NCBI RefSeq assembly: GCF_027944115.1
Contig: NZ_JAPJZI010000001.1
Span: 3,968,001-4,032,000 of the forward strand
From: Hoeflea prorocentri
GTDB taxonomy: Bacteria; Pseudomonadota; Alphaproteobacteria; Rhizobiales; Rhizobiaceae
Length of the DNA stretch: 64,000 bases
Direction of reading: 5' to 3'
Below the pieces are notes generated by a model. It saw nothing but the letters and a program-made list of their open reading frames with translations, ran no database searches and had not been told where the DNA came from. Made by a program: the position numbers and the translations under genes. Shown piece after piece: positions 6,862 to 54,643 of this stretch; position 1 is the first letter of the stretch, and every line of letters starts with the position of its first letter.

Positions 6862-6999
6862 ATCTCCTGTGCTGGTCGCTCGTCCAGATTTTGCTAGGAT
6901 GCGTTATGTTGAGGCAATATGGTTTGGCAGGTTAGAGATATTTCAGTTCATTTCGTATCAAATCTTTGACAAAATGACATGAAATGGCATGATTGAAAA

Positions 7000-8031
7000 A
7001 TGGTCAAGCGTCCGACGATTCCAGATCTAGCCGAGTTTGCCGGAGTTTCCGTGTCCACCGTAAACCGGGTGGTCAACGGGAGTGACAGTGTACGCCAACC
7101 GACGAGGGAACGCATTTTGCGCGCTGCCGAGGAAATCGGCTTCTATGGTCTCGGCTCCATTGAACATGAAGTGAAGCGCTGGCGCGAAACTCATAAACTG
7201 GGCGTGCTTCTGCAACAGGGCAACCGCGCCTTCAGCCGTACGGTAAGCGATGCTTTGTATCGTGCTGCAGCGGAGGATCTGGACGGCACGGTCGAATTGA
7301 CCGTGGAATTTCTCGACGATCTGACAGCGGACACGGTCGCCGCGCGGCTGATTGATCTGGGAGAGCGTTGCGAATCCGTGGCGCTTCTTGCTGCCGGTCA
7401 CCCGATCCTGTCAAATGCTATCGATACGGTTCTGCAAACGGGTGTTCCGGTAACCGCACTGGTCTCCCAGCTTTCGGCCAAGGGCAATGTCAGTTTTGTC
7501 GGGCTTGATAACTGGAAAGTGGGGCGGACAGCCGCCTGGGCTTTCGACAAAATCGTAAGGCAACCCGGCAAGATCGGCATTCTTGTAGGCAATCACCGTT
7601 ATCGCTGCCAGGAACTGAACGAAAGTGGATTCCGCTCCTATTTCCGCGAATACAATCCCAGCTTTACTCTTCTGGAGCCGCTATCGACCTACGAGTCCGC
7701 TGCAGTAGCCCGTGAGAAGACCGAATATCTGCTCGCCGAGCATCCGGACATGTGCGGGCTTTTCGTATCAGGCGGCGGCATTACCGGCGCACTGGCGGCC
7801 TTGCGCGACCAGCCTCGCAGGGAAGATTTCTTCACTGTCGGTTATGAGCTGTATGATGCGACGCGAACAGCCTTGATTGACGGAACGCTGAACTTTGTCA
7901 TCTCGCACCCGTTCGAAATATTTGCGCGAAAGGCCCTCGCGACCATGATCAAGGCAAAGAAGAACGGAAGCGACGCGGGGGCACAAAATGTGTCGCTGGA
8001 GTTCGATATCTATACGTCGGAGAATGTGTGA
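7000..8031 (+). CDS. LacI-family transcriptional regulator of the sugar operon
   Basis: A 343-residue regulator. The N-terminal helix-turn-helix (about residues 6-30, TIPDLAEFAGVSVSTVNRVV) and hinge are typical of LacI/PurR, followed by a periplasmic-binding-like effector domain with SFVGLDNWKVGR near residue 165. It is divergent from the seven-gene catabolic operon and so very probably controls it, with the imported sugar or a metabolite as effector. The ribosome-binding site is poor. Rhizobial regulators of this subgroup govern inositol or pentose uptake; the ligand is not determinable here. Confidence 0.9.
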   Translation: MVKRPTIPDLAEFAGVSVSTVNRVVNGSDSVRQPTRERILRAAEEIGFYGLGSIEHEVKRWRETHKLGVLLQQGNRAFSRTVSDALYRAAAEDLDGTVELTVEFLDDLTADTVAARLIDLGERCESVALLAAGHPILSNAIDTVLQTGVPVTALVSQLSAKGNVSFVGLDNWKVGRTAAWAFDKIVRQPGKIGILVGNHRYRCQELNESGFRSYFREYNPSFTLLEPLSTYESAAVAREKTEYLLAEHPDMCGLFVSGGGITGALAALRDQPRREDFFTVGYELYDATRTALIDGTLNFVISHPFEIFARKALATMIKAKKNGSDAGAQNVSLEFDIYTSENV

Positions 8032-8059
8032 CGCTTCACAAGGGCCTGCCTTGCAGACC

Positions 8060-8260
8060 TTAATGTTGTCCCGCCTGGTCCAGGCGCTTTCTTTCAAGCT
8101 GGATGGTTACGTAATAGACCCCGAAATCATCTGCCAACACAGCATCGAGGCCTTTAAGGGCCCTGTCATGGCCTGCTCCGTCTGACAGGACGGCCTGTGT
8201 TGTCAGGACCGGCTTGTCCAAGGTCAGCGACCAGATATAGACGTGTTTGATGTTCTCATT
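8060..8260 (-). pseudogene. Remnant: C-terminal end of a cation diffusion facilitator (CzcD/ZitB-like)
   Basis: The last 66 codons of this frame spell a sequence typical of the cytoplasmic C-terminal domain of CDF zinc/cadmium exporters: HVYIWSLTLDKPVLTT, then HDRALKGLDAVLADDFG and VTIQLERK. The frame stays open upstream to 8506, but that part has no CDF features (no six-helix membrane domain, no HxxxD metal site) and overlaps the secreted-protein gene. The 5' part of the gene has evidently been lost, leaving a fragment convergent with the LacI-type gene. No start codon with a ribosome-binding site is visible. Confidence 0.7.
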
Positions 8261-8411: not shown

Positions 8412-8882
8412 ATGATCGATCTCACGTTTATCCGCTGCCTTTGTCCTGTTGCCGTGATCGCGGTGTTTGCTCCGGCAGAGACGTTGGCAGAGGAAAAATC
8501 ACGCATACCGCCGCGAGAGCTCTATCAGACCATGCTGGACGCGAACCGACAGAGCGGATGGGTCCAGTTCCGGAACTTCAGCGGCTCTCAGTGGATTTAT
8601 TTCACCGCCCTGCAAACCCTGCACTGCCGGCTTTCAGAAATCCGCTACTCCATCAATTCGACGTCACTCGACAAGCGGTTCGCACTTGTCGACTGCAACC
8701 CTCAGAACCCCATGGCTCTGCCGCCGGACGCCGGGCCCGAGGCAATCGCATTGCGGTTTGCGCCGGATACAGCTCAAAGCATCGCTGTCCAAGTCGTATG
8801 GGAAGACGGCAGTGAAAGCGATGTCGCCATATATGAGCCATGCGACAATGTGGGCGAGCAAAGCTGCGCTTGGCCAAAGTGA
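8412..8882 (+). CDS. Secreted hypothetical protein
   Basis: A 156-residue protein with an N-terminal signal peptide (hydrophobic stretch about 9-23, cleavage near ETLAEE). The mature part has cysteines in CRLSEIRYS, VDCNPQNP, EPCDNVG and SCAWPK, which could form two periplasmic disulfides. GGAG lies seven bases before the ATG. I do not recognise a named family; compact cysteine-containing exported proteins of this kind are common in rhizobia. Its neighbours, a degraded metal exporter and a sugar-nucleotide enzyme, give no clear functional hint. Confidence 0.7.
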   Translation: MIDLTFIRCLCPVAVIAVFAPAETLAEEKSRIPPRELYQTMLDANRQSGWVQFRNFSGSQWIYFTALQTLHCRLSEIRYSINSTSLDKRFALVDCNPQNPMALPPDAGPEAIALRFAPDTAQSIAVQVVWEDGSESDVAIYEPCDNVGEQSCAWPK

Positions 8883-9023
8883 TAGAACCGAACAAAGTGA
8901 CCAAAAAAATACGCATGAGTGGCAATATCTACCAAGGATTGTATGGACTTTTTTTCAACCTATGCGGTATATCTGCTTTTTAATGACATAGTGCGATTAA
9001 TGTAATATGTCCTTCCCGCTCCT

Positions 9024-43466: not shown

Positions 43467-44648
43467 GTGGACAAAAACAACAAACAAGAGACCAGGCCGC
43501 GATTCCCGACGGTCGAGGCCCTGACGCAGTGGATGATCGACGGCGCGCGGCCAAGCGCCGATGCGCGCGAGATCATTACCGGCATATGTGACGGGCTTGT
43601 CGGACTCGGCGTCCAAATCGACCGGTTTGTCCTCTTCATCTATACGCTGCACCCCAATCTCCTCGGCACCCGGTTTCGCTGGATCAAAGGCCAGGGCGTC
43701 GACATCAGCCATGCGCAGCTCGGTACATTCAACCAGGAGATCTACACGTCCAACCCCCTGCCCCGCGTCGTCGAAAAGCAGGTCACGATACGCCGGCATC
43801 TGGAACGGCCGGACTGTCCGGAAGACTACATTATTGTCGGTGAATTGCGGGAACAGGGCTTTACCGACTATCTGGCCCAGCCGCTGATCTTCACCACCGG
43901 CGAGACCAATGTGTGCACCTGGTCATCGGCGCAGAAGGGCGGTTTCAGCGAAGACGATCTGGAGATTTTACGACGTGTGAATCCACCGCTCGCCCGACTG
44001 ACCGAGACCTATATGCTGCGACTCAATTCGGCTGTGCTTTTGTCGACCTATGTCGGCCGCAACAGCGGAACGCTCATCCGGGACGGAAAGGTTCATCGCG
44101 GCGACGGGGAGGAAATCACCGCTGTTATCCTGTTTGTCGATCTGAAGAACTTCACCCAGCTCTCGAACGAAAGGACCGGACCGGAGCTGGTCGCACTCCT
44201 CAACGACACATTCGATCAACTGGTGCCGCCGGTTACGGCCAGAGGCGGGGAAATCCTGAAATTCATGGGTGACGGGTTCTTTGCGATCTTCCCCTATGAG
44301 GACGAGGAAGGCCTTGCCGCCATGACGGGAGCGGCAATGGATGCGGTTTCGGAAGGGATGGAAACCCTGGCCGAAAACCCGACCGGGGATGCCGTGTCGT
44401 TTCGCACGGCGCTCCATTGCGGCACCTTTCACTATGGCAATATCGGCGGCGGCGACCGGCTCGATTTCACAGCCATCGGACCGCCGGTCAACTATACGGC
44501 AAGGCTGCTTTCGGCGGCGGCAGACCTTGGCTGCGACAATGTCGTCTCGGACGCGCTTGCACGCTATGCACCGGAGCGCTGCGACGTCGCCGGCTCCTCA
44601 GAGCTCAAAGGGTTCGAAGGCGAGCAGACGATCTGGCGTTTCCGCTAG
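43467..44648 (+). CDS. Cytoplasmic class III adenylate/guanylate cyclase with N-terminal GAF-like region
   Basis: 393 residues from a GTG. Residues 1-210 look like a divergent sensory domain without membrane segments (YIIVGELREQGFTDYLAQPL is typical of this rhizobial group). The cyclase domain has the metal Asp in VILFVDLKNFT, Lys and Asp in ILKFMGDGFFAIF, and Asn/Arg in PPVNYTARL. The second base-selecting Asp is replaced, giving GPPVN instead of GDxVN, so ATP or GTP preference is uncertain. It converges on the membrane cyclase at 44667. Confidence 0.88.
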   Translation: MDKNNKQETRPRFPTVEALTQWMIDGARPSADAREIITGICDGLVGLGVQIDRFVLFIYTLHPNLLGTRFRWIKGQGVDISHAQLGTFNQEIYTSNPLPRVVEKQVTIRRHLERPDCPEDYIIVGELREQGFTDYLAQPLIFTTGETNVCTWSSAQKGGFSEDDLEILRRVNPPLARLTETYMLRLNSAVLLSTYVGRNSGTLIRDGKVHRGDGEEITAVILFVDLKNFTQLSNERTGPELVALLNDTFDQLVPPVTARGGEILKFMGDGFFAIFPYEDEEGLAAMTGAAMDAVSEGMETLAENPTGDAVSFRTALHCGTFHYGNIGGGDRLDFTAIGPPVNYTARLLSAAADLGCDNVVSDALARYAPERCDVAGSSELKGFEGEQTIWRFR

Positions 44649-44666: not shown

Positions 44667-46028
44667 TCATTCCAGCATCAGCACTTCCGTAGAGGCGCTG
44701 CGGCCGCGCAGGATCAAAGGCCCGTGCCGGTGCAGCCGGGCCAGAGCCGTTGCCGTTTCCGCGGGGCTTTCGGCTTCAGCCGCCTCGACCAGCGCGGTGC
44801 TGACAACACAGCGACAGCCGATCTCCCGATTGGCCTGCTCCAGACGGCTTGCCACGTTGACCGTATCGCCGAGAACGGCAAATTCCATGCGCCGGCTGGT
44901 TCCGATGTCGCCCAGGATGATGGTCCCGTAGTGCACGCCGACCGCCAGTTCCAGATCTCCGGCGTCGGTTCCCTGTTTGGATTCCTTCCACAGCCGGAAG
45001 ACATCGGCCATTTCAACCGCCGCGGTCAGCGCGTTGACGGCATCGCGGTCGGTCGGTTCGGGCGTTCCGAAGGTCGCCATCAGGCCGTCGCCGATGAACT
45101 TGTCCAGCGTGCCGTCATGTCGAAAGACCGTATCGGCCAGCAATTCGTGAATCTGCCTCAGTACGCTGATGGTTTCCTGCGCCGGGCGGTCCTCTGCCCA
45201 GTTGGTAAAGGAGATCAGATCGGCAAAGAGAACTGCTGCCTGATGTTCACGCGGCTGCGACAGGGGGTTCGTGCGGGTCGCCAGGAGATCAACCGTTTTG
45301 CGGGGGAAATAACGTGCGAGGTTTGTCCGCTCGCTCGCGAGCGCGGCCTGCCGCAGGGCAATCGCTCGAGAGCGGGAAACCGCCAACGCCAAAAGGCCTG
45401 CGGTCAAGAGCAGGACAATTACCTCCTGGAGCCTGACGCCAAGGTCAATAAAATGCGGATCGGCCATGGTTTGCAGCAGCACCTCGCGATCCTCGCCCAC
45501 CGGCGGCGCAGTGATCGCTCCAGGCAGACTGGCGAGTATGGCCACACCGATTGACCAGCTCAAAGCAGCCGAAACCCCACCCCAAAGGACCACACCTGGC
45601 CGATAGAGGTATGCAAGCACTGCCAACAGCACGAAGAAATAGATGAAATTTCCGAAACGCAGACTGTATTGCGGCGGCAGGTCGAAGGGGATCAGCGGAT
45701 TCGGATAAAGGAGCACAAACGACAAAAGTGCAAAATCGGCAAAGACAAATGCGTAACGATGCCATTCCCGGCGCCATGGCGCTCTCTCCGCGCGATAGGC
45801 GCCAATGCCAAGAAGGACAAACAGAACCATCACGGGGTAATACATCAGCGGCCCCGGCCAGGGAGCCAGTATCGTCGATAGTATGGCAATAACCGCAAGA
45901 GCCAGCATCCGGCCCCATAGAGCCACCTTCTGCGCCGCCAGCTCTTCCGTCCTGAATGTCGGATTGCTGTCGCCGTGATCTGTTTGCGTCGTTGTCTGCG
46001 CCATATACGGCCACCCATCTCCGGACAT
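44667..46028 (-). CDS. Membrane-bound class III adenylate cyclase
   Basis: 453 residues (ATG at 46028; another at 46004). About six hydrophobic segments span residues 40-220, then a short linker with ARYFPRKTVDLLA leads to the cyclase domain: VLFADLISFT, LDKFIGDGLMATF and FAVLGDTVNVASRLEQ keep the metal Asps, base-selecting Lys and Asp, and the Asn/Arg pair. It should be an active adenylate cyclase of the inner membrane. Convergent with the previous cyclase and divergent from the GNAT gene. Confidence 0.9.
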   Translation of the reverse strand: MSGDGWPYMAQTTTQTDHGDSNPTFRTEELAAQKVALWGRMLALAVIAILSTILAPWPGPLMYYPVMVLFVLLGIGAYRAERAPWRREWHRYAFVFADFALLSFVLLYPNPLIPFDLPPQYSLRFGNFIYFFVLLAVLAYLYRPGVVLWGGVSAALSWSIGVAILASLPGAITAPPVGEDREVLLQTMADPHFIDLGVRLQEVIVLLLTAGLLALAVSRSRAIALRQAALASERTNLARYFPRKTVDLLATRTNPLSQPREHQAAVLFADLISFTNWAEDRPAQETISVLRQIHELLADTVFRHDGTLDKFIGDGLMATFGTPEPTDRDAVNALTAAVEMADVFRLWKESKQGTDAGDLELAVGVHYGTIILGDIGTSRRMEFAVLGDTVNVASRLEQANREIGCRCVVSTALVEAAEAESPAETATALARLHRHGPLILRGRSASTEVLMLE

Positions 46029-46249: not shown

Positions 46250-46864
46250 ATGAACGACGTGACCGCGCAGGCGATGTACTCGATGAGGCCGATGGGGGCC
46301 GACGATATTTCTGTGATGGCCGAATGGTTCGCGGATTTTGAGGATATTGCCCTTTTTGACCGGAGCCTGCCGGTTCCTGTCGGGCCGCAGGCAGTTCTTG
46401 AAAGCTGGAAACCGGCCCTTGAGCTCACGGACCCGCCGACATGTCTTTGGTATGTCGCGCAATGTGCGCAGGGCAAGCCGACGGGGATCGGCGGCCTTCA
46501 GAAGATCAACTATATTCACGGCGACGCCGTGCTGCCGATATTTGTCGCGCGGCATGCGCGCGAAAACGGCCTGGCTACGGCGATGACGATCGAATTGCTC
46601 GATCTTGCTTTTCAGCACTTGCGGCTTCACCGGGTCACAACGCTTTATCGCGATGACCATGAAACCACAGCCCTGCTCACCCGGAATCTGGGATTTCAGG
46701 AGGAGGGCCGGGTACGCGAGGGCTGGTATGCGAACGGGCGGCATTACGACGTGGTTCAGGTCGGCATATTGAACAGCGAATGGAGTGCCAAACGCGTGGG
46801 CGCGCGTGCGGAGTTCAATCAGAAAAACAAGGTCAGGATCAAACTGGAGGCAATACCGACGTGA
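46250..46864 (+). CDS. GNAT-family N-acetyltransferase
   Basis: 204 residues. The GNAT core shows FADFEDIALFDRSLPVP, an acetyl-CoA site region (ARHARENGLATAMTIELLDLAF) and the RimJ/RimL-like LTRNLGFQEEGRVREGW near the C-terminus. The acceptor is unknown; this RimJ-like subgroup acetylates protein N-termini or small amines. Its 3' end lies 13 bp before the cyclase-TPR gene on the same strand, so the two are probably co-transcribed. Confidence 0.88.
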   Translation: MNDVTAQAMYSMRPMGADDISVMAEWFADFEDIALFDRSLPVPVGPQAVLESWKPALELTDPPTCLWYVAQCAQGKPTGIGGLQKINYIHGDAVLPIFVARHARENGLATAMTIELLDLAFQHLRLHRVTTLYRDDHETTALLTRNLGFQEEGRVREGWYANGRHYDVVQVGILNSEWSAKRVGARAEFNQKNKVRIKLEAIPT

Positions 46865-46877
46865 CGAAGGGCAGGGC

Positions 46878-48653
46878 ATGAGCGACGTGCAGCAAACGCG
46901 GTTCAAGAGCCGGCTTTCGGCCATCTTGTTTGCGGATATGGTCGGCTACAGCCGGATGATGGCTGAGGATGAAATGGCCACGACCATGGCTGTGAAGTCC
47001 TGTGTCGAAATGTTTTCGGCACTCGCAGGCGATTTCTCCGGCAAGGTTATCGGGACCAATGGCGACGGTGTTTTTCTCGTCTTCGACAGCGCCGTCGATG
47101 CGGTCTCTTTCGCCGTCGAAATCCAGAACCGCATCCGCGAGCAGAACCAGGGCGTCAGCGAGAACAAGCAAACACTCTTCCGCATCGGCATCAATCTCGG
47201 CGAAATCATCATCGACGAACTCGATCTGCACGGCGACAGCATCAATATCGCCTCGCGTATCGAATCCTTCGCACAGCCGGGACGCATCTGCATCTCCGGC
47301 ACCGTCCATGATCAGGTCAGCAAAAAGCTCTCCTTCGGCTACGAATATCTGGGGGCTCAGGAATTCAAGAATATCAGCGAGCTGGTGGATGTGTTCCAGG
47401 TTCATGAAGACCCTGCTGCCGCCACGCTGACCACCGGCATGCGGCGCCCTGCCCGCAGTTCCGAATATGTGCGCCCGGAAGCCAACAAGGAGCAGTCCAT
47501 CGTCGTGCTGCCCTTCGGTTTTCAGGGCAACGATCCGTCGGAAAGCTGGTTTGCGGACGGGCTGGCCGACGATGTCACCACCAACCTGTCCCGGTTCCAC
47601 GATTTCTTCGTGATCGCCCGCGGCTCGGCCCATGTCTACAACGACCGCAGCATCGCAGCGCGGGATGTCGCACGCGAGCTCGGCGTGCGTTACGTGGTGG
47701 ACGGCTCGGTGCGTAAATCCGGGCCGCGCATACGCGTGGCGCTGCAATTGATGGACGCCAAGCGCGACCGGACGATCTGGGGCGAACAGTATAATCGCGA
47801 GATTGAGGACATTTTCGATCTGCAGGATGAAATCACGCAGGTCATCGTCTCCGCCACAGCGGTGCAGATTGAGGCCTCGGAGCTCGACCGGGTGCGGCAA
47901 CAGCCGCCGACAAACCTTGCCGCCTACGGGTTCGTCCTGCAGGGCCAAAGTCATATTTTCCGCTATACGCAGGAAGAGGTTGCCCGCGCCCGCGAGCTTT
48001 ATGACAAGGCTCTGGAAATCGACGCTGCCTATGCCCGTGCGCTGGCTGCAAAGTCGCGGACGCTGAATATTGACTGGCGCTATGGCTGGACGGATGAGCC
48101 GGACAGGGCGCTGGACGATGCCCTGCATCTGGCCCGCCAGGCGGTTGATTTCGACAATGCCGATGCACGCGGCTTCGGTGAGCTTGGTTTTGCGCATCTC
48201 TACCGCAAGGAGCATGACGCGGCGCTCAACGCCTATGAGCGGGCGCTGCGGCTTAATCCCAACGATGCGGACCTGATGTCGGATATGGCCGACGCGCTGG
48301 CACATAGCGGCCGGTCGGAGGAAGCGGTGGCCATGCTGCACAAGGCCATGCGTCTCAATCCCTTCTACCCGGACCAGTACATCTGGCATCTGGGCGGGGC
48401 CTATTTCAATCTGGAGCGCTATGACGATGCGATCCGCACGATCCAGACCATGCAGAACCCGACCGAGGGCCGCCGGCTGCTCGCGGCAAGCTACGGCATG
48501 CTCGGACGCACTGCGGAGGCGGAGGCGGAGGCGCGAAAGGTGCTACAGGCCCATCCGAATTTCAGCGTCGATGCCTGGGCGGCCGTGCAGCCGGACAAGT
48601 TCGAAGAGGACGTCGCCCGCTTTGTCGACGGGCTGAAAAAAGCCGGCCTTTAG
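46878..48653 (+). CDS. Class III cyclase fused to TolB-like and TPR domains
   Basis: 591 residues. A cyclase domain (about 1-180), a TolB-N/FlgO-like segment (SIVVLPFGFQGNDPSESWFA through VRYVVDGSVRKSG) and at least four TPR units (about 370-570) follow in order. The first metal Asp is in LFADMVGYSR and the second in IGTNGDGVFLVF; in that loop the usual base-selecting Lys (VKTxGDG) is Gly. DLHGDSINIASRIE keeps the Asp and the Asn/Arg pair. Activity or nucleotide choice may therefore differ. Many such cyclases occur in rhizobia. GAAGGGCAGGGC precedes the ATG. Confidence 0.88.
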   Translation: MSDVQQTRFKSRLSAILFADMVGYSRMMAEDEMATTMAVKSCVEMFSALAGDFSGKVIGTNGDGVFLVFDSAVDAVSFAVEIQNRIREQNQGVSENKQTLFRIGINLGEIIIDELDLHGDSINIASRIESFAQPGRICISGTVHDQVSKKLSFGYEYLGAQEFKNISELVDVFQVHEDPAAATLTTGMRRPARSSEYVRPEANKEQSIVVLPFGFQGNDPSESWFADGLADDVTTNLSRFHDFFVIARGSAHVYNDRSIAARDVARELGVRYVVDGSVRKSGPRIRVALQLMDAKRDRTIWGEQYNREIEDIFDLQDEITQVIVSATAVQIEASELDRVRQQPPTNLAAYGFVLQGQSHIFRYTQEEVARARELYDKALEIDAAYARALAAKSRTLNIDWRYGWTDEPDRALDDALHLARQAVDFDNADARGFGELGFAHLYRKEHDAALNAYERALRLNPNDADLMSDMADALAHSGRSEEAVAMLHKAMRLNPFYPDQYIWHLGGAYFNLERYDDAIRTIQTMQNPTEGRRLLAASYGMLGRTAEAEAEARKVLQAHPNFSVDAWAAVQPDKFEEDVARFVDGLKKAGL

Positions 48654-48666
48654 GAAAAGACCGGCT
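48635..48666 (-). terminator. Probable terminator of the YcaO-TfuA operon
   Basis: On the minus strand AGCCGG (48661-48666) and CCGGCT (48641-48646) form a 6-bp stem with a 14-nt loop, followed by TTTTTTC. It overlaps the end of the convergent cyclase-TPR gene. The stem is short, so termination strength is uncertain. Confidence 0.5.
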
Positions 48667-48692: not shown

Positions 48693-49289
48693 TCAGTCGC
48701 CGGCGTCGCCACGAGCACCGCTGATGCGCGCGCCGGAAACCCTGGCGCCGGACACGCGCGCGCCTGATACACGGGCACCGGAAACGCGCGCGCCTGAGAC
48801 CCTCGCTCCGGATACGCGGGCACCGGAAACGGCCGCACCGCCTTCGCCGATCGTGCTCAGCAGCAGGTCGGCAAAGCTTCCCGAATCAATATCGAGACGC
48901 ATTGTGTCGTCGCCACGGTCATAGGACCAGGCCCTCAGATCGTCGTAGAAATTCTTGTCGTCATTGTCGGGGCCCGGGACCTTTATCTCGCTCGGATGTT
49001 TGCCCTCGCCATGGACCAGGAAGAGGACCGGCACGCCGACTTCGAAATAGGCGCCTTCGTAGCTGAAACCGTAGATTCTGGCGAAACGGGCAAGTTTCTT
49101 GCCCGACCCGGCGATAGCATCAGCCATCTCTTCCCGCATCAACTGTTGCTGAATGCCTGACGAAGACCCCTTGGCTGTAGCCTTGGATGGGCTGTGCGCC
49201 TTGTTTCCGCGCGGCGCGACAATGTTGATGTCCTCAACCTCACGGCCGAACAGAACTATGTTGGACGCGCTGAGCAATGTTTCAGGCAT
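48693..49289 (-). CDS. SGAR-repeat protein, candidate YcaO/TfuA substrate
   Basis: 198 residues. Residues 1-153 are an unrecognised domain without signal peptide (LFGREVEDINIVAPRG, RLDIDSGSFADLLLS near its end). Residues 154-193 are eight tandem pentapeptides, seven VSGAR and one ISGAR, then GDAGD. GGGGAGG precedes the ATG. It is last in the operon with ycaO, tfuA and a metallopeptidase, so it may be a modified precursor with repeated cores, the serines or backbone amides being the targets. Alternatively the ARVSG register matches a short pentapeptide-repeat beta-helix. Function not established. Confidence 0.8.
   Translation of the reverse strand: MPETLLSASNIVLFGREVEDINIVAPRGNKAHSPSKATAKGSSSGIQQQLMREEMADAIAGSGKKLARFARIYGFSYEGAYFEVGVPVLFLVHGEGKHPSEIKVPGPDNDDKNFYDDLRAWSYDRGDDTMRLDIDSGSFADLLLSTIGEGGAAVSGARVSGARVSGARVSGARVSGARVSGARVSGARISGARGDAGD
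48711..48830 (-). repeat. Eight tandem 15-bp units encoding VSGAR/ISGAR
   Basis: Read on the minus strand, eight 15-bp units follow without gaps. The serine, glycine, alanine and arginine codons differ between units (for example TCC, TCA, AGC; CGC, CGT, AGG), yet the peptide is constant except one Val-to-Ile change. This points to selection on the peptide, not recent slippage. Confidence 0.9.
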
Positions 49290-49385
49290 TTGACCTCCCC
49301 TGTCGCCAATTTTGCTGGACTATTACCGGCTTTCTACTGGGCCTAGTCACGTATCTTTACAGTATTGTTAAACCAGCAAAGGAAT

Positions 49386-50651
49386 TCAGTCTATAGGCAT
49401 CATGGTGCGCACCGAGTTGGCGTGACTGTCCTTTTGCAAGGGCTGGAGCTGCGGTCCGACCCGGACATGGCCAATGTCGCGCATGTCAAAATTGCCCTTG
49501 ATCAGCGCTCGGTAGCGGCCGCCGGTGTGGTCTTCATCCACAGACTGGAAGGCCCTGGCCACATCAACAAAATTCAGATCGTTCCGGTCGAGGCGCTGCC
49601 AGGTGTCGGCCAGATAGGTGCCGAGAATATCGCGCGCATCAATGAGAGCCATCTTGAAGCTGTCCGGATCGCGGGCGAAGGCTTCGTCAAACAGCGCCTG
49701 CATGACCGGTGCGTAATCCGGTGTCGCCAGCAGCTGGTCTGACATGTCCTCCATCTGCGCATCGATGGCGCCATAGTCGAGCAGGCATTCGTGAAACAGG
49801 TCGACAAAAATGTCGAAAAAAGCACCGGTCAGCGGCTGGGACAGCTTGTGTTCCTTGATCCAGCCGCGCTCGAACTCCGACAGGCGCACGTCGTTCGCCG
49901 CAATACGGATCTGCGAGTTGTCCGACAGCTCGGCCATACGGGTGATGGTGTTGAGCCGGTAGAGATTGCCGCTGGTGTTGTTGAGCAACCGATCGACAAG
50001 GCTGTTGAAATGCAGTGACGACACGAGGGCAACGAGATCGGCGGCGCTTTCGTGGAAACCGTAATATTCGCCGGTTGCGCCGTTCGGGTCCGGAACGCCG
50101 ATCTCCGAATAGATAAAGGCGTGGCCGACCTCGTGGGCGATCACGTCGAAATTCAGGCTGAAGGGCTTGTAGCGCCCGTGCTTGCGGTCACCGCCCATCT
50201 CCAGGAAACCATATCCCGAATAGGCGTTTTCCAGCGTCGGCAGGATCGTCAGTTCAAGGCGCTCATAATGGCGGGCGCTGTGCCAGGGAATGGGCCTGTC
50301 GAAATAGCCTTCCCAGATATCCATGACAAATCGCACGGTGCCAAAAAGATGTGCGGCCTCGAATTGCGGGGTCCCCGGCTCAAGATAGTCAAAATGACCA
50401 TCTTCGTCGGGCTCAGCCAACGGATGCACTTCGCCTTTCCAGGGCGGCATGAGAACATCCGACGCCTCGCCCGGGTTCGGATTGATACCGTAGGGCGAAG
50501 GCTTTCCGACCGGGAAGATGGTGTACATGCGCTCATCGGCCGGTCCCGGCTCAAGCGAACCGGCGGGCGAGGAAACATAAACCGTTTCCGGCTCTTCAAA
50601 ATCATCCAGGAAACGCGGCTGAGGAAACAGCCTGAATCGCGTGCCTTCCAT
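49386..50651 (-). CDS. HEXXH metallopeptidase (gluzincin type) of the YcaO-TfuA operon
   Basis: 421 residues, no signal peptide, so probably cytoplasmic. HEVGH at 173-177 supplies two zinc ligands and the catalytic Glu; HESAAD at 200-205 offers the third ligand Glu201, 24 residues after the second His, as in thermolysin-like (M4) enzymes. Homology beyond these motifs is weak. GAGGTGATC precedes the ATG, 32 bp after tfuA. In the operon it could remove the leader or cut between the SGAR repeats of the candidate precursor. It may also be unrelated to maturation. Confidence 0.8.
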   Translation of the reverse strand: MEGTRFRLFPQPRFLDDFEEPETVYVSSPAGSLEPGPADERMYTIFPVGKPSPYGINPNPGEASDVLMPPWKGEVHPLAEPDEDGHFDYLEPGTPQFEAAHLFGTVRFVMDIWEGYFDRPIPWHSARHYERLELTILPTLENAYSGYGFLEMGGDRKHGRYKPFSLNFDVIAHEVGHAFIYSEIGVPDPNGATGEYYGFHESAADLVALVSSLHFNSLVDRLLNNTSGNLYRLNTITRMAELSDNSQIRIAANDVRLSEFERGWIKEHKLSQPLTGAFFDIFVDLFHECLLDYGAIDAQMEDMSDQLLATPDYAPVMQALFDEAFARDPDSFKMALIDARDILGTYLADTWQRLDRNDLNFVDVARAFQSVDEDHTGGRYRALIKGNFDMRDIGHVRVGPQLQPLQKDSHANSVRTMMPID

Positions 50652-50683
50652 GTCCGATCACCTCACCCCTCGACCGAAGCGCG

Positions 50684-51487
50684 TCATTCTTCTGTGCCCG
50701 TCGATCTGTATAGACTGTCTTCGGGAACAAGGCGATAGGCGCCGGATGGGGACGCCGTGACGCGCTTTTGGGCTCGCCGCCAATCCGCAACACCGCGGCG
50801 CCACATCTCCGTTTGTTCGAAATGAAACGACGGATGCTCGCCCGGCCAGTTCTCCTGCCGGGATATGTGGTCGAGCAGCATCAGCGCATCGAGGTTCTTG
50901 CGATCGACATAGTTGTCGCGCAGCCAGTCGGCGACGGCTGTCAGCTCGGCGTCACCGTTTCCACGCAGCGCCGCCAATAGGGCAGTCCACGTCCTTTCCT
51001 TGAAATGGATGCATTTTGCCAATGATGCGGCCTGATCGCTCACCTGTGCCGACACGACGCCTTCAGAAACAGCCTTTTCCAAAGTTGCCCGGATATTGAC
51101 CATGGCAAGGCTGAGCGGCGCAAAGCCGGTTTCGGCCGGTCCGTGCTGAAGGGCGACCTCATCATCGTCTTCCAAAGCGCCATCGCGGTAGGCGTCGTAA
51201 ACCGCGCCGATGCCGACCATGCCGAAGACATCAAGTTCGGCAGCCCGGAGCGCGCCCATGCTGGATGCACCGAATACCGGCACGCCCTGGTCGATCGCCC
51301 ACAGCACTTCCTTGTGCCAGACTGACGGGACGCCATCAAAAACACCATCGATCAGGCCGATTGCATCCGCGCCGTCCTCCACAGCCAGATAGAGATCGCC
51401 TTGTTTTGCAGGCGGCCGAAAATCAAACCCCGGATACTCATAGGATAGCGTGCCCGCCAGGGAGGGTCCGGCAAATAACACAATCAT
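50684..51487 (-). CDS. tfuA: TfuA-like protein
   Basis: 267 residues with the TfuA core signatures: FAGPSLAG at 5-12, LIDGVFDGVPSVWHKEVLWA at about 45-64 and GASSMGALRAAEL at 73-85. TfuA proteins partner YcaO enzymes; the name comes from the trifolitoxin locus of Rhizobium, and in characterised thioamide systems TfuA is needed for sulfur delivery. Its ATG overlaps the YcaO stop (ATGA) behind GGGGAGG. The pairing strongly suggests peptide backbone thioamidation or azoline formation. Confidence 0.9.
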   Translation of the reverse strand: MIVLFAGPSLAGTLSYEYPGFDFRPPAKQGDLYLAVEDGADAIGLIDGVFDGVPSVWHKEVLWAIDQGVPVFGASSMGALRAAELDVFGMVGIGAVYDAYRDGALEDDDEVALQHGPAETGFAPLSLAMVNIRATLEKAVSEGVVSAQVSDQAASLAKCIHFKERTWTALLAALRGNGDAELTAVADWLRDNYVDRKNLDALMLLDHISRQENWPGEHPSFHFEQTEMWRRGVADWRRAQKRVTASPSGAYRLVPEDSLYRSTGTEE

Positions 51488-52722
51488 GTGACCACCTCCC
51501 CGTTTGTCAGACCCTGAAAAGCGCGGCTGCCGGGCAGATAGGTTGAATCATCATGCGGCGCCTCAAGGCCCGGAACAATGATGCGAACAACGGGGATCTG
51601 CGTGTCGTCGCGGCTCAGATCCACCGCCGCGACCTCTTCGATACCGGCCTTGCGAAGCGCGCCAAGCAAGGTGGCGAGATCGTCAGAGAGCGTCGGGTTC
51701 ACAACACTGGGCAATGCGGAAAAGGGCCGCTTGAATGCGCTCGCTTCGAGCAATTCGATGACGGCTTCGTTCTTTTCGGCGCGGCCCGACAGGTCATATT
51801 CAGACATCATCAGATCGTCGCGCGATCCGCTGATATAGTTGAGGCGGGTCTGTGCGGCTTCCGTCAGGGCCCGGCGCAGCGCGATCCGCCTGTCGAGATG
51901 GGTGCCGGAACCAAGACCGACATGCCCGCCATGATGTCCGGGCTCCATCACGGCGCACAAGACGGTGGCGACACCGATATCTGTTGTCACATCCCAAAGG
52001 CCGCATTGGAGACCAGCGGAGGCGAACCGTTGCATGATAAGCTGCGCCGGTGCATCGTCGATGCTCTGCTGTTCAAGACCGCGCAGCGCCTTCTCTCCTA
52101 TCGATGCATGATGCCAGACGGCAAGACCATCGCGCTCGACCACCTCGCAAATACCGTGACAGACGGCTTCCAGCGGATGATTGCCGGATGACAGACCATT
52201 TGTGCTTGCCGGAAAACAGCCATGACCCGGCTGGACGGGATGGGTGTAATCGGCATGGACCATCTCGAATGGAACCAGCAGATTCTCTCCGCTTATCAGG
52301 TCCTGCGCATCGGCCCACAGCATGCGCAGGGACTCGGAGAACCGGCCATCGACAACCCCCGGAAGCCGATCGACGTCAATGACCCTATGATTGCCGGAAA
52401 GTTCGCGCAGGCTGGCAAAACGCATCGGCCGGTCGAAATGCTCGGCATGCCAGATTTCAACCGCCTCCATAAGTGCCGACGCCTTGGCCTGCGCGGCCTG
52501 CAGGCCCTTGCCCTGGGATACGGCAACGGAGCGGGCATTCGGGCGGGTTGCCAGGAAGACCGGCACACCAAGCCGGTCAAGACCGGTGACATTTGCAAGA
52601 CGCGTGATGCCGAAGCGTTCCTTGAGCGGCAATATGCGGGCCAATGTCTCTTCAGCATTGCAGACCCGGTGCCACCCCTCGCTCAACCGTTTGGCGCCAC
52701 TGTCCTGCGTATGCAAATCCAT
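51484..52722 (-). CDS. ycaO: YcaO-domain ATP-dependent peptide-backbone modifying enzyme
   Basis: 412 residues. The YcaO ATP/Mg motifs are recognisable: QGKG at 70-73, SALMEAVE at 82-89, GLSSGNHPLEAV at 176-187 leading to CEVVERDG at 192-199, and RALTEAAQTRL at 284-294. YcaO enzymes phosphorylate a peptide amide to form azolines, amidines or, with TfuA, thioamides. There is no proline-rich C-terminus of the azoline-forming class, and no dehydrogenase gene for azoles nearby. First gene of the four-gene operon, divergent from aspT. Confidence 0.9.
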   Translation of the reverse strand: MDLHTQDSGAKRLSEGWHRVCNAEETLARILPLKERFGITRLANVTGLDRLGVPVFLATRPNARSVAVSQGKGLQAAQAKASALMEAVEIWHAEHFDRPMRFASLRELSGNHRVIDVDRLPGVVDGRFSESLRMLWADAQDLISGENLLVPFEMVHADYTHPVQPGHGCFPASTNGLSSGNHPLEAVCHGICEVVERDGLAVWHHASIGEKALRGLEQQSIDDAPAQLIMQRFASAGLQCGLWDVTTDIGVATVLCAVMEPGHHGGHVGLGSGTHLDRRIALRRALTEAAQTRLNYISGSRDDLMMSEYDLSGRAEKNEAVIELLEASAFKRPFSALPSVVNPTLSDDLATLLGALRKAGIEEVAAVDLSRDDTQIPVVRIIVPGLEAPHDDSTYLPGSRAFQGLTNGEVVT

Positions 52723-52927
52723 CAATCATGTCCAATGCGCGTAACCCATAGAATAGACCTGGTTTTACTTCGCTTTGCGCGATTGATCCATCGATTTGCC
52801 AGTTTTGCCGGTCAGCCGACTTTTTGGCGGAACAGGCGGCGCGTTGAAATCACAGCTTGTTTCCGCCGCCATTGCTGTTGCACAGTGACCGTTGGATACA
52901 GCACACACGCGACGACTGGAGCTGGCA
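52723..52927. other. Divergent promoter region of the YcaO operon and aspT
   Basis: About 200 bp between ycaO and aspT starts. The half near ycaO is AT-richer and should carry both promoters. I see no clear operator palindrome or terminator. Confidence 0.4.
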
Positions 52928-54643
52928 ATGGTGGAATTTTTCGATCGGCTGTTTGATGCGGCTCCGTTGCTGGCTTTGTTTATCACCGTATCGCTCGGAT
53001 ACATGGTCGGCAAACTGACCATCGGTCAGTTCGTGCTTGGCGGCGTTGCCGGCTCATTGCTGGTCGGCGTCCTTATCGGACAGTTTGGCATAGAGCTCGA
53101 TACGGGAATGAAATCGGTTTTTTTTGCACTGTTCATCTATGCGGTTGGCTATCAGGGCGGGCCGCAATTCTTTCGTTCGCTCAACAGGCGCTCGCTGAAC
53201 CAGCTCGTATCCGCATTTGTCATGTGCCTGGTCGGCCTGATCTGCGTGCTGATCAGCGCCTGGGCGTTCAACCTCGATCGCGGCACGGCGGCGGGTCTGG
53301 CGGCGGGCGGCCTCACCCAATCCGCCATTATCGGCACCGCCGGAGACGCCATCGCCAAGCTGGCGGGCGTGACAGCGGACCAGATCAAGGTAATGCAGAC
53401 CAATGTCGCCGTCGGCTATGCCGTCTGCTACATCTTCGGCAATCTCGGACCGATCATCATTGTCACATGGTTCCTGCCGATGGTGATGAAATGGGACATC
53501 CGCCAGGAGGCCGTCAAGCTTGCCAAAGAGATGTCCGGTGGAACGCCGCAACTCGAGCCCGGCCAGTTCAACGCTATCCGAAAGGTAACGACACGCCTTT
53601 ACAACGTGACCGAGGGCAGCAATGCGGCCGGAAAATCCGCGATTGCAATCGATAGGGATCTCTCGGACGCGGCAGTAGAGGCCGTTCTTCGCAACGGCCA
53701 AAACCTTGCCGTCAGTGACGACACCGTCGTTCAGCCAGGCGACAGGGTCGCCGTTACGGGTGTTGTCGACGTTCTGGTGGATAAAGCCCCCTATTTCGGG
53801 CCTGAAGCTGCTGCCCCCGATCATTTCCAACTGGTCGAAGAGCACCGCGAAATTATCGTCACCCGCCCCCGGTTCATCGGCAAAACCATCGGCGCGATGC
53901 GCGAGGAACTGGGCGTCGAGACACGTCACGGTGTCTATCTGGTTGCCGCCAAGCGCATGGGCCGGGATCTGCCCAATCTTGACGGGCTTGAGCTGCACAA
54001 GGGCGACGAGCTGCTCTTTATCGGTGCGCCGAGAGATCTCGACCGTGTCGAAGGGCTGCTCGGCTACAAGATTACTGCGGCCGCAGTCACCGATTTTGTC
54101 TTCTTTGGCCTCGGCATGGCGATCGGCATTCTGCTTGGTCTGATCCAATTCAAGATCGCCGGCATTCCGGTGACAATCGGAACAGGCGGCGGATGCCTTC
54201 TCTCAGGGCTCCTTTTCGGCTGGTTGCGCAGCACCCATCCGCAATTCGCCGCGCTGCCGACAGGGGCATCAAACTTCCTGCGTGATTTCGGACTGGCTGT
54301 CTTTGTCGCCATTGTCGGCATTTCCGCCGGACCGCAGGCGGTCACGACCATGCAGCAATATGGCGTCACGCTGTTCTTCCTCGGTGTGGGCGTTACCATC
54401 ATTCCGCAAATTGTGGTCTTTTTCTTCTCCTACTACGTGCTGCGCATCCAGAACCCGATCGAGGCGCTGGCATGTGTCGTCGGCGGACGCAGCGCCAATC
54501 CCGGCTTTGCGGCACTGCTTGCGAAAGCCGGCAATGCAACGCCGGTCGTCTCTTTCACGGTCACCTATGCGGTCGCCAATGTCTTTTTGACGATCTGGGG
54601 ACCGCTGATTGTCGGCATCATCACCAAAAACGCCTCGCCCTAA
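52928..54643 (+). CDS. aspT: Aspartate:alanine antiporter (AspT family)
   Basis: 571 residues. Two blocks of hydrophobic helices (about 10-185 and 385-565) flank two TrkA-C-like cytoplasmic domains, the layout of AspT/YidE-type transporters. GGLTQSAIIGTAGDA and GGRSANPGFAALLAKAGNATP are the repeated family motifs. It exchanges aspartate for alanine. GGAG lies eight bases before the ATG. The asdA gene follows after 12 bp. Confidence 0.92.
   Translation: MVEFFDRLFDAAPLLALFITVSLGYMVGKLTIGQFVLGGVAGSLLVGVLIGQFGIELDTGMKSVFFALFIYAVGYQGGPQFFRSLNRRSLNQLVSAFVMCLVGLICVLISAWAFNLDRGTAAGLAAGGLTQSAIIGTAGDAIAKLAGVTADQIKVMQTNVAVGYAVCYIFGNLGPIIIVTWFLPMVMKWDIRQEAVKLAKEMSGGTPQLEPGQFNAIRKVTTRLYNVTEGSNAAGKSAIAIDRDLSDAAVEAVLRNGQNLAVSDDTVVQPGDRVAVTGVVDVLVDKAPYFGPEAAAPDHFQLVEEHREIIVTRPRFIGKTIGAMREELGVETRHGVYLVAAKRMGRDLPNLDGLELHKGDELLFIGAPRDLDRVEGLLGYKITAAAVTDFVFFGLGMAIGILLGLIQFKIAGIPVTIGTGGGCLLSGLLFGWLRSTHPQFAALPTGASNFLRDFGLAVFVAIVGISAGPQAVTTMQQYGVTLFFLGVGVTIIPQIVVFFFSYYVLRIQNPIEALACVVGGRSANPGFAALLAKAGNATPVVSFTVTYAVANVFLTIWGPLIVGIITKNASP

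Follow-up and report, generated by a model that had tools for sequence, protein, structure and literature searches.

The Hoeflea prorocentri contig NZ_JAPJZI010000001.1 (assembly GCF_027944115.1) carries a cassette of four minus-strand genes that encode a YcaO enzyme, a TfuA protein, a metallopeptidase and a protein with a repetitive tail. We analyzed positions 3,968,001 to 4,032,000 of this contig, a stretch of 64,000 nucleotides that we call the window; coordinates below count from its first letter. The cassette most likely belongs to a new YcaO-TfuA peptide pathway, one whose multi-core precursor is unusually large and whose output may be a cyclic nucleotide. A first-pass annotation, made from the sequence alone, had placed the four genes exactly, including the ATGA overlap and the 32- and 96-bp spacers, and had correctly described the 198-residue product of the last gene as ending in eight VSGAR/ISGAR units. 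It overlooked two linked genes on the plus strand. The features are as follows.

51484 to 52722, minus strand: ycaO, for an ATP-dependent enzyme that activates backbone amides, starting at ATG, with an in-frame TTG at 52725.
50684 to 51487, minus strand: tfuA, 267 amino acids, with an ATGA overlap with the ycaO stop.
49386 to 50651, minus strand: metallopeptidase gene, 32 bp past tfuA.
48693 to 49289, minus strand: repeat-protein gene, 198 amino acids, 96 bp past the peptidase gene.
Product of the repeat-protein gene (minus strand): repeat-tailed protein, a putative multi-core precursor, divided by conservation and AlphaFold into an N-domain (amino acids 1 to 150) and a tail (151 to 198).
48711 to 48830, minus strand: unit array, the putative cores, with eight five-residue units (seven VSGAR and one ISGAR).
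46878 to 48653, plus strand: class III nucleotide cyclase-TPR gene, 591 amino acids, tail to tail with the repeat gene and ending 39 bp from its stop.
46250 to 46864, plus strand: GNAT N-acetyltransferase gene, directly upstream of the cyclase-TPR gene.

The YcaO and TfuA identities proposed earlier agree with Pfam (E-values of 1.5e-79 and 1.9e-46). In NCBIfam, the best model for each protein describes McrA-glycine thioamidation (TIGR03266 for YcaO, E 2.8e-67; NF033432 for TfuA, E 4.6e-58), with scores below the cut-offs of the models. The nearest solved YcaO structure is that of archaeal MJ1094 (6pe3, E 4.3e-30), and three ATP-binding stretches that we recognized by eye (SALMEAVE, CEVVERD and RALTEAAQTR) align with it. 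Given that both enzymes are closest to McrA-glycine models, thioamidation is favored over azoline formation, a preference that these similarities support but do not prove. Pfam showed no RRE domain in the four cassette proteins, to which no RRE-specific model was applied. The window TfuA is a short form that lacks a C-terminal extension, and its nearest relatives are short too. Among the TfuA frames of ten relatives, nine have 437 to 502 amino acids and one has 304. The short and long forms share an identical gene order.

The peptidase contains the sequence HEVGH (50121 to 50135) and a candidate third zinc ligand, E201 (50049 to 50051). Residues H173, E174, G176, H177, E201 and D205 are invariant in all 33 peptidase sequences compared. 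At E 0.01, the window peptidase matches no Pfam or NCBIfam family, NCBIfam HEXXH-hydroxylase families included; Peptidase_M4 reaches E 0.064, which is below the curated Pfam cut-off. At E ≤0.01, two of the 33 members match M4 and one matches M36. Although no Pfam family exceeds its cut-off, the AlphaFold model (pLDDT 87) matches thermolysin (4tnl, E 1.8e-7) and an M36 peptidase (7qfy, E 5.0e-7) in Foldseek, so that the HEXXH peptidase named in the first-pass annotation stands. The protein models as a gluzincin resembling thermolysin and M36 peptidases. We also considered an alpha-ketoglutarate HEXXH enzyme, and rejected this identity because the model has the thermolysin/M36 fold. No membrane segment or signal peptide was suggested in six window proteins, in which the highest 19-residue hydrophobicity mean is 1.61. 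Since none of these proteins has a sufficiently hydrophobic stretch, the gene set looks cytosolic.

The two parts of the repeat protein differ in their conservation: the N-domain is conserved across other genera, and the units of the tail vary by lineage. This is the pattern expected of a leader plus multiple cores, and it supports the earlier multi-core proposal. The repeat protein thus has the linkage, conserved leader and variable core by which precursors of ribosomally synthesized and post-translationally modified peptides (RiPPs) are recognized, and its 145-residue N-domain is unusually large for one. In the AlphaFold model, the core of the N-domain is well folded, residues 150 to 194 have pLDDT values below 50 and the tail (the last ~48 residues) is predicted to be disordered. 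No Pfam family matches the first 150 residues above its cut-off (there is a stray match in one of 16 N-domain members, E 0.046), and a Foldseek search with the fold found no PDB match (best E 2.7). Long repeat proteins of ~280 to 313 amino acids, with an insert of ~100 residues in the N-domain, occur in several genera (e.g., locus L170, 8201 to 9043). The single long form examined matches nothing in PHROGs at E 0.01.

Tandem Repeats Finder detects the array with a period of 15 (score 93, 68% matches), as well as with periods of 30 and 45. Orthologous arrays have about 3 to 11 units, whose length is four (MNVG), five (VSGAR, VSGAK, VSGSR, GASVR, MSARG, GGGKV), six (YSGGKA, SGANLG, TGRSMM, VGRSDL) or seven residues (GRSGGAM, SGQRVRA). 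These periods bear on the idea that the tail is a pentapeptide-repeat beta-solenoid with a structural or DNA-mimicking role, of the MfpA/Qnr type. The Pfam model Pentapeptide matches below its cut-off (E 0.0032), and a profile that includes the tail matches designed beta-solenoids (4yfo, E 1.3e-9). However, periods of 4 to 7 rule out that the orthologues share the function of a strict pentapeptide helix, the tail pLDDT is below 50 and 40 residues amount to two coils only. On period and disorder, and despite the profile match, we rejected the solenoid, which we regard as very improbable.

The units within one gene are alike in protein and diverged in DNA. The proportion of synonymous differences (pS) among the eight window units is 0.686 and that of nonsynonymous differences (pN) is 0.119, the latter partly because Ser and Arg each have two codon blocks and because of one V-I change. 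In a set of 130 rows that retains duplicates, the medians over the 115 rows with at least four units are pS 0.745 and pN 0.076; the remaining 15 have no four-unit array. With synonymous sites near saturation, the copies inside one gene appear to be old. Given that units remain alike while their silent sites are saturated, selection seems to act on each unit as a product. The conserved N-domain, together with eight units that keep their amino acids despite synonymous divergence, likewise indicates that the array is more than chance.

For counts of unit types, basic residues, cyclase residues and Gly74 (see below), we removed 12 second copies of the same contig. Locus L041 was scored as YcaO-positive based on the presence of tfuA. 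Of the 104 arrays in which four or more basic residues recur at regular spacing, 99 are uniform, i.e., all Lys or all Arg, the mixed ones being L119, L154, L052, L050 and L060. The peptidase tree, from which 12 second-copy loci were removed before thinning at 93% identity to 84 rows, requires a total of 10 changes between Lys and Arg (FastTree), and a subset of 50 rows requires 7. We found no sign that whole-array exchange causes this switching, given that pairs of the same and of different type have equal median tail codon identity, both where the peptidases are at least 90% identical (0.393 and 0.393) and at 80 to 90% identity (0.37 and 0.37). Thermolysin prefers a large hydrophobic residue at P1'. 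Exactly one V, I, L, M, F, Y or W residue, a possible P1' site, is present in 14 of the 18 unit types of YcaO-positive loci.

To assess conservation, we used the N-domain without the repeats as one query, and the peptidase as another. The peptidase search covered 84,980 species genomes and yielded 164 relatives, of which the best 80 loci were fetched; the counts out of 80 that follow refer to these. All 80 loci, some of which are cut by a contig end, contain ycaO and tfuA, adjacent to each other and directly upstream of the peptidase gene. The repeat gene is present in 79, and the single locus without it (L067) is a 4.1-kb contig that ends just past the peptidase. The cyclase-TPR gene occurs in 69 and the GNAT gene in 63. 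The hosts include Ruegeria, Roseobacter, Leisingera, Roseovarius, Hoeflea, Roseibium and Mesorhizobium, as well as metagenome bins titled Hyphomicrobiales, Rhodospirillales and Kiloniellales.

Searches with the N-domain, in counts that include the window genome, found it in 14 of 199 genomes of the family, 11 of 297 of the order, 5 of 385 of the class and 3 of 398 of the phylum. All 10 other genomes from the order have the four genes together, which answers a check that the first-pass annotation had proposed, and five of the 10 have a strong cyclase match in the fetched stretch. The four genes are also together in three of the four other genomes from the class, and in 10 of the 13 others from the family. 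One of the 13 lacks ycaO and tfuA, and the remaining two are contigs of 6.3 and 3.2 kb that end inside the cassette. Among plasmids, there were 51 N-domain records, of which five were opened, and 141 peptidase records, of which six were opened, including one from R. etli CFN 42. The ycaO-tfuA-metallopeptidase-repeat gene set is a conserved and widespread alphaproteobacterial cassette, present in numerous bacteria of marine and soil habitats.

This linkage largely refutes a role in which YcaO-TfuA modifies a housekeeping protein, e.g., a ribosomal protein, and is beside the repeat gene incidentally. A thioamide in uL16 is reported (PMC13063428), although the assignment of a YcaO as its installer is our inference. 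Against such a role, the association with the peptidase gene holds in 80 of 80 loci from diverse genera, the only TfuA match in the window genome is the cassette copy and the S12-associated YcaO model, with a cut-off of 700 bits, gives the window YcaO a score of 21.5. We therefore find a housekeeping target highly doubtful.

Phage origin and anti-phage defense were rejected, because the N-domain has no match in 50,697 phage records and none at E 0.01 in PHROGs, and YcaO, TfuA, the peptidase and the repeat protein have no PADLOC match at E 0.01. The cyclase matches Pycsar cyclase models in PADLOC (1.6e-8), which we read as general class III similarity. A 44% identical homologue of the peptidase occurs in a cyanobacterium (L218, a plasmid of Nostoc sp. 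UHCC 0302, 6965 to 8227). It is flanked by two ferritin-like genes and a radical SAM gene, with no annotated ycaO or repeat-protein neighbor.

We distinguish three architectures. Architecture A, that of the window, has ycaO, tfuA, the peptidase gene and the repeat gene, usually with the cyclase gene and often with the GNAT gene. Architecture B has the cyclase, peptidase and repeat genes, with no ycaO or tfuA found alongside. It occurs on four Rhizobium plasmids that we opened, at seven Mesorhizobium loci (L163 to L169, of which L168 is a short contig showing only the peptidase and repeat genes) and in one further genus (L151). In three of the YcaO-less Rhizobium loci (L018 to L020), a protein of ~110 amino acids is encoded after the repeat gene, at ~8600 to 8950. 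Architecture C combines a large cyclase-AAA-TPR protein, ycaO, tfuA, the peptidase gene and a diverged homologue of the repeat protein that has a single, unrepeated tail. A profile search for these homologues, with 20 of 25 listed places fetched, recognized them at E-values from 1e-5 to 1e-3; L180 and L182 were recognized by eye. Hosts are Mesorhizobium, Rhizobium johnstonii 3841, Phyllobacterium and Sinorhizobium meliloti Ak57; the last of these has a tfuA frame in its DNA that the record does not list as a gene.

In the peptidase tree, the four group-B rows form one clade (support 100), so that one change, most simply a loss, suffices to explain them. Their units are of the RSGG/RSSG kind, mostly with seven residues and with five in L151. 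The first-pass annotation had made linkage of the repeat gene to ycaO and tfuA a test of its proposal. This linkage holds in 79 of the 80 loci and fails in group B. The clade retains the cyclase, peptidase and repeat protein, as might be expected if the tail served in unmodified form, as a binding scaffold, a linker, or a substrate and decoy of the peptidase, within a protein-based cyclase-peptidase-repeat signaling unit, and if YcaO-TfuA had another target in the operon. We consider this unlikely. In the fetched loci ycaO and tfuA are always directly upstream of the peptidase gene, linkers do not normally hold their units alike and the absence of YcaO-TfuA goes with RSGG/RSSG units, although SGG is also present in one YcaO-positive unit type (YSGGKA).

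Another candidate target within the same protein is Gly74 of the N-domain (in ARIYGF). YcaO-TfuA could modify this glycine in the manner of McrA, in which case the repeat protein would be a thioamidated working protein and the tail a separate matter. The similarity of both enzymes to the McrA-glycine pair is consistent with this proposal, and so is the residue itself: Gly is read in 94 of the 107 rows that have ycaO or tfuA and recognized by eye in two more, and all 11 rows without these genes have Ala or Ser (eight from TfuA-free genomes and three from Rhizobium plasmids; L153, a cut contig whose genome has TfuA, and L162, a 3.2-kb contig, are left out). Moreover, group C, which has ycaO and tfuA, mostly retains a G-[FY]-x-[YF]-E-G stretch. 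However, seven ycaO/tfuA rows have Ala (L099, L096, L069, L078 and, by eye, L039) or Ser (L176 and L042), L041 differs too and three of the 107 rows are unreadable. The correlation counts only once, given that the YcaO-less rows form one clade, and a modified Gly74 leaves both the uniform units and the peptidase unexplained. Overall, we view Gly74 as a rather unlikely target.

The linked plus-strand genes belong to the same conserved neighborhood. The cyclase-TPR protein matches Guanylate_cyc (E 1.4e-13) and TPR_1 (E 1.2e-15) in a longer open reading frame (ORF) from 46785, and the GNAT protein matches Acetyltransf_3 (E 2.8e-9) in an ORF from 46226. Two metal-binding Asp residues and an Asn-Arg pair, which we take to be the catalytic residues of class III cyclases, are retained in most of the nearest copies from 97 loci (Asp in 94 and 93, Asn in 94 and Arg in 96), a sample outside which the large group-C proteins fall. 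In six related genomes with ycaO and tfuA that were searched whole (G1155, G029, G1175, G071, G1250 and G067), the linked cyclase is the best match to the window cyclase, with a lead of at least 175 bits over the next paralogue (in G1155, 1147 versus 300). The window genome has four cyclase matches, the linked one at 1319 bits and the next at 201. Three genomes in which the cassette has no cyclase nearby were also searched. In G037, a copy with 70% identity is on a separate contig, and a piece with 80% identity lies at the very beginning of the contig that carries the cassette; G267 and G113 have their top matches (519 and 389 bits, respectively) on contigs other than that of the cassette. The linked cyclase-TPR gene suggests a possible reader of the product. 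In the YcaO-less clade, cyclase linkage is weaker evidence, given that the linked copy is a different paralogue and that one Mesorhizobium genome has 27 cyclase matches.

We think that the cassette probably specifies a multi-core, RiPP-like precursor pathway, in which cores are thioamidated by YcaO-TfuA, cut by the peptidase and possibly sensed by the cyclase. In this pathway, the folded N-domain of ~145 residues would be a leader or docking domain, and the ~3 to 11 near-identical short units of the disordered tail would be the cores. YcaO and TfuA would convert a backbone amide to a thioamide, with the glycine in each unit as the likeliest site, and the intracellular thermolysin-like peptidase would cut between units to give several identical short peptides. 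The GNAT enzyme might then N-acetylate the released peptides. The most likely user of the product would be the cyclase-TPR protein, whose TPR part could bind the peptide and whose class III cyclase could make a cyclic-nucleotide signal. A more specific version, that thioamidated and perhaps N-acetylated peptides of 4 to 7 residues bind the TPR domain and switch cAMP or cGMP, with the Lys and Arg blocks acting as pherotype-like signals, is tentative, and we would not presume it.

Several observations weigh against this pathway. The repeat gene is not always accompanied by YcaO-TfuA: in group B, TfuA (PF07812) is absent from all eight genomes searched whole, a search that did not take in Rhizobium chromosomes or YcaO genome-wide. 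Modification is thus not always needed, and either an unmodified peptide works in this clade or the tail is not the target. The cyclase linked in this clade is also a different paralogue. Elsewhere, G527 (L041), the fourth of the other genomes from the class, has tfuA, the peptidase gene and the repeat gene in an 18-kb stretch in which a profile found no ycaO, and two Paracoccus plasmids have YcaO, TfuA and a repeat protein with only 2 to 3 units, with no peptidase alongside. No cyclase is present in the fetched stretch of 11 of the 80 loci, in some cases owing to a contig end. Two or three hydrophobic residues occur in three of the 18 YcaO-positive unit types and none in one. Finally, a Pfam scan of eight window proteins revealed neither an exporter nor an immunity gene, except for an upstream permease of the aspartate-alanine exchanger type (52892 to 54643, plus strand) that we read as unrelated.

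We now note other properties of the locus. Two further class III cyclase-like genes, recognized by eye, occur upstream of the GNAT/cyclase-TPR pair, at 43467 to 44648 (plus strand) and 44667 to 46028 (minus strand); only the latter matched a profile (52 bits). With the linked cyclase-TPR gene, three cyclase-like genes thus lie in ~5 kb. Between the convergent repeat and cyclase genes, we noticed by eye a G+C-rich hairpin followed by a T run on the minus strand (48636 to 48666). It covers the last codons of the cyclase gene, and its loop exceeds the limit of the terminator scanner. A promoter and terminator scan gave counts within ~1.2 standard deviations of those for shuffled sequences.

If correct, our interpretation adds a widespread alphaproteobacterial YcaO-TfuA peptide pathway and a simple setting in which to test bacterial thioamidation together with a built-in protease. 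It also prompts one to ask which signals these bacteria sense with their many TPR-fused class III cyclases. Given that the precursors have ~150 to 310 amino acids, size-limited precursor searches would probably miss the pathway. Tests are feasible in tractable strains, given that Rhizobium johnstonii 3841, Rhizobium etli CFN 42 and a strain of Sinorhizobium meliloti each have a version of the cassette. We found no description of the cassette in open-licence PMC literature, in titles and the beginnings of abstracts among the matches listed, supplements being outside this scope. Malit et al. 2021 (PMC8120280) reported many proteobacterial TfuA clusters and name Ruegeria once, for its Nif11-like precursors in such clusters. 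A word search of that main text gave no hits for "repeat" or "cyclase" and one each for "peptidase" (an S9 enzyme) and "acetyltransferase" (albusnodin), and the sections consulted describe no similar cluster.

Among known systems, the archaeal thioamidation of McrA glycine provides the closest models for both enzymes and the closest solved YcaO, but its target is a large metabolic enzyme. The alpha-ketoglutarate HEXXH enzymes of RiPP clusters (PMC12636437) share with the window protein a HEXXH sequence within a peptide-modifying cluster, whereas the window protein models as thermolysin/M36. In Bacillus, sensors of the PlcR type use their TPR domains to bind short peptides, and PapR requires the protease NprB for its maturation (PMC4147580). 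The likeness to this system is one of logic only, i.e., a TPR receptor, a short-peptide precursor and a maturation protease, and we claim no homology. In the same source, PlcR is a DNA-binding regulator and the PapR precursor has 48 residues with a putative secretion signal. Here, by contrast, the TPR part belongs to a cyclase fusion, signal peptides were not seen and the cassette includes YcaO-TfuA.

The most similar known pathway is that of thiovarsolin, and the comparison with it in the first-pass annotation was apt. According to PMC6511847, the Streptomyces varsoviensis genes are varA-varY-varT-varO, and varA, ycaO and tfuA alone lead to N-acetylated, thioamidated APR peptides derived from repeats, with the thioamide at Pro-Arg and acetylation attributed to a host enzyme. 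Precursors of this family have from none to five repeats, a range that the unrepeated tail of group C recalls. Thiovarsolin is actinobacterial, and the cassette differs in its folded 145-residue N-domain and more uniform units, in its thermolysin-like peptidase, in its linked cyclase-TPR gene and in the absence of a heme oxygenase from the window proteins that we scanned. The two systems share YcaO and TfuA, imperfect repeats of varying number and, as predicted for the cassette, short Arg-containing products, and the linked GNAT gene would fit an N-acetylation like that of thiovarsolin.

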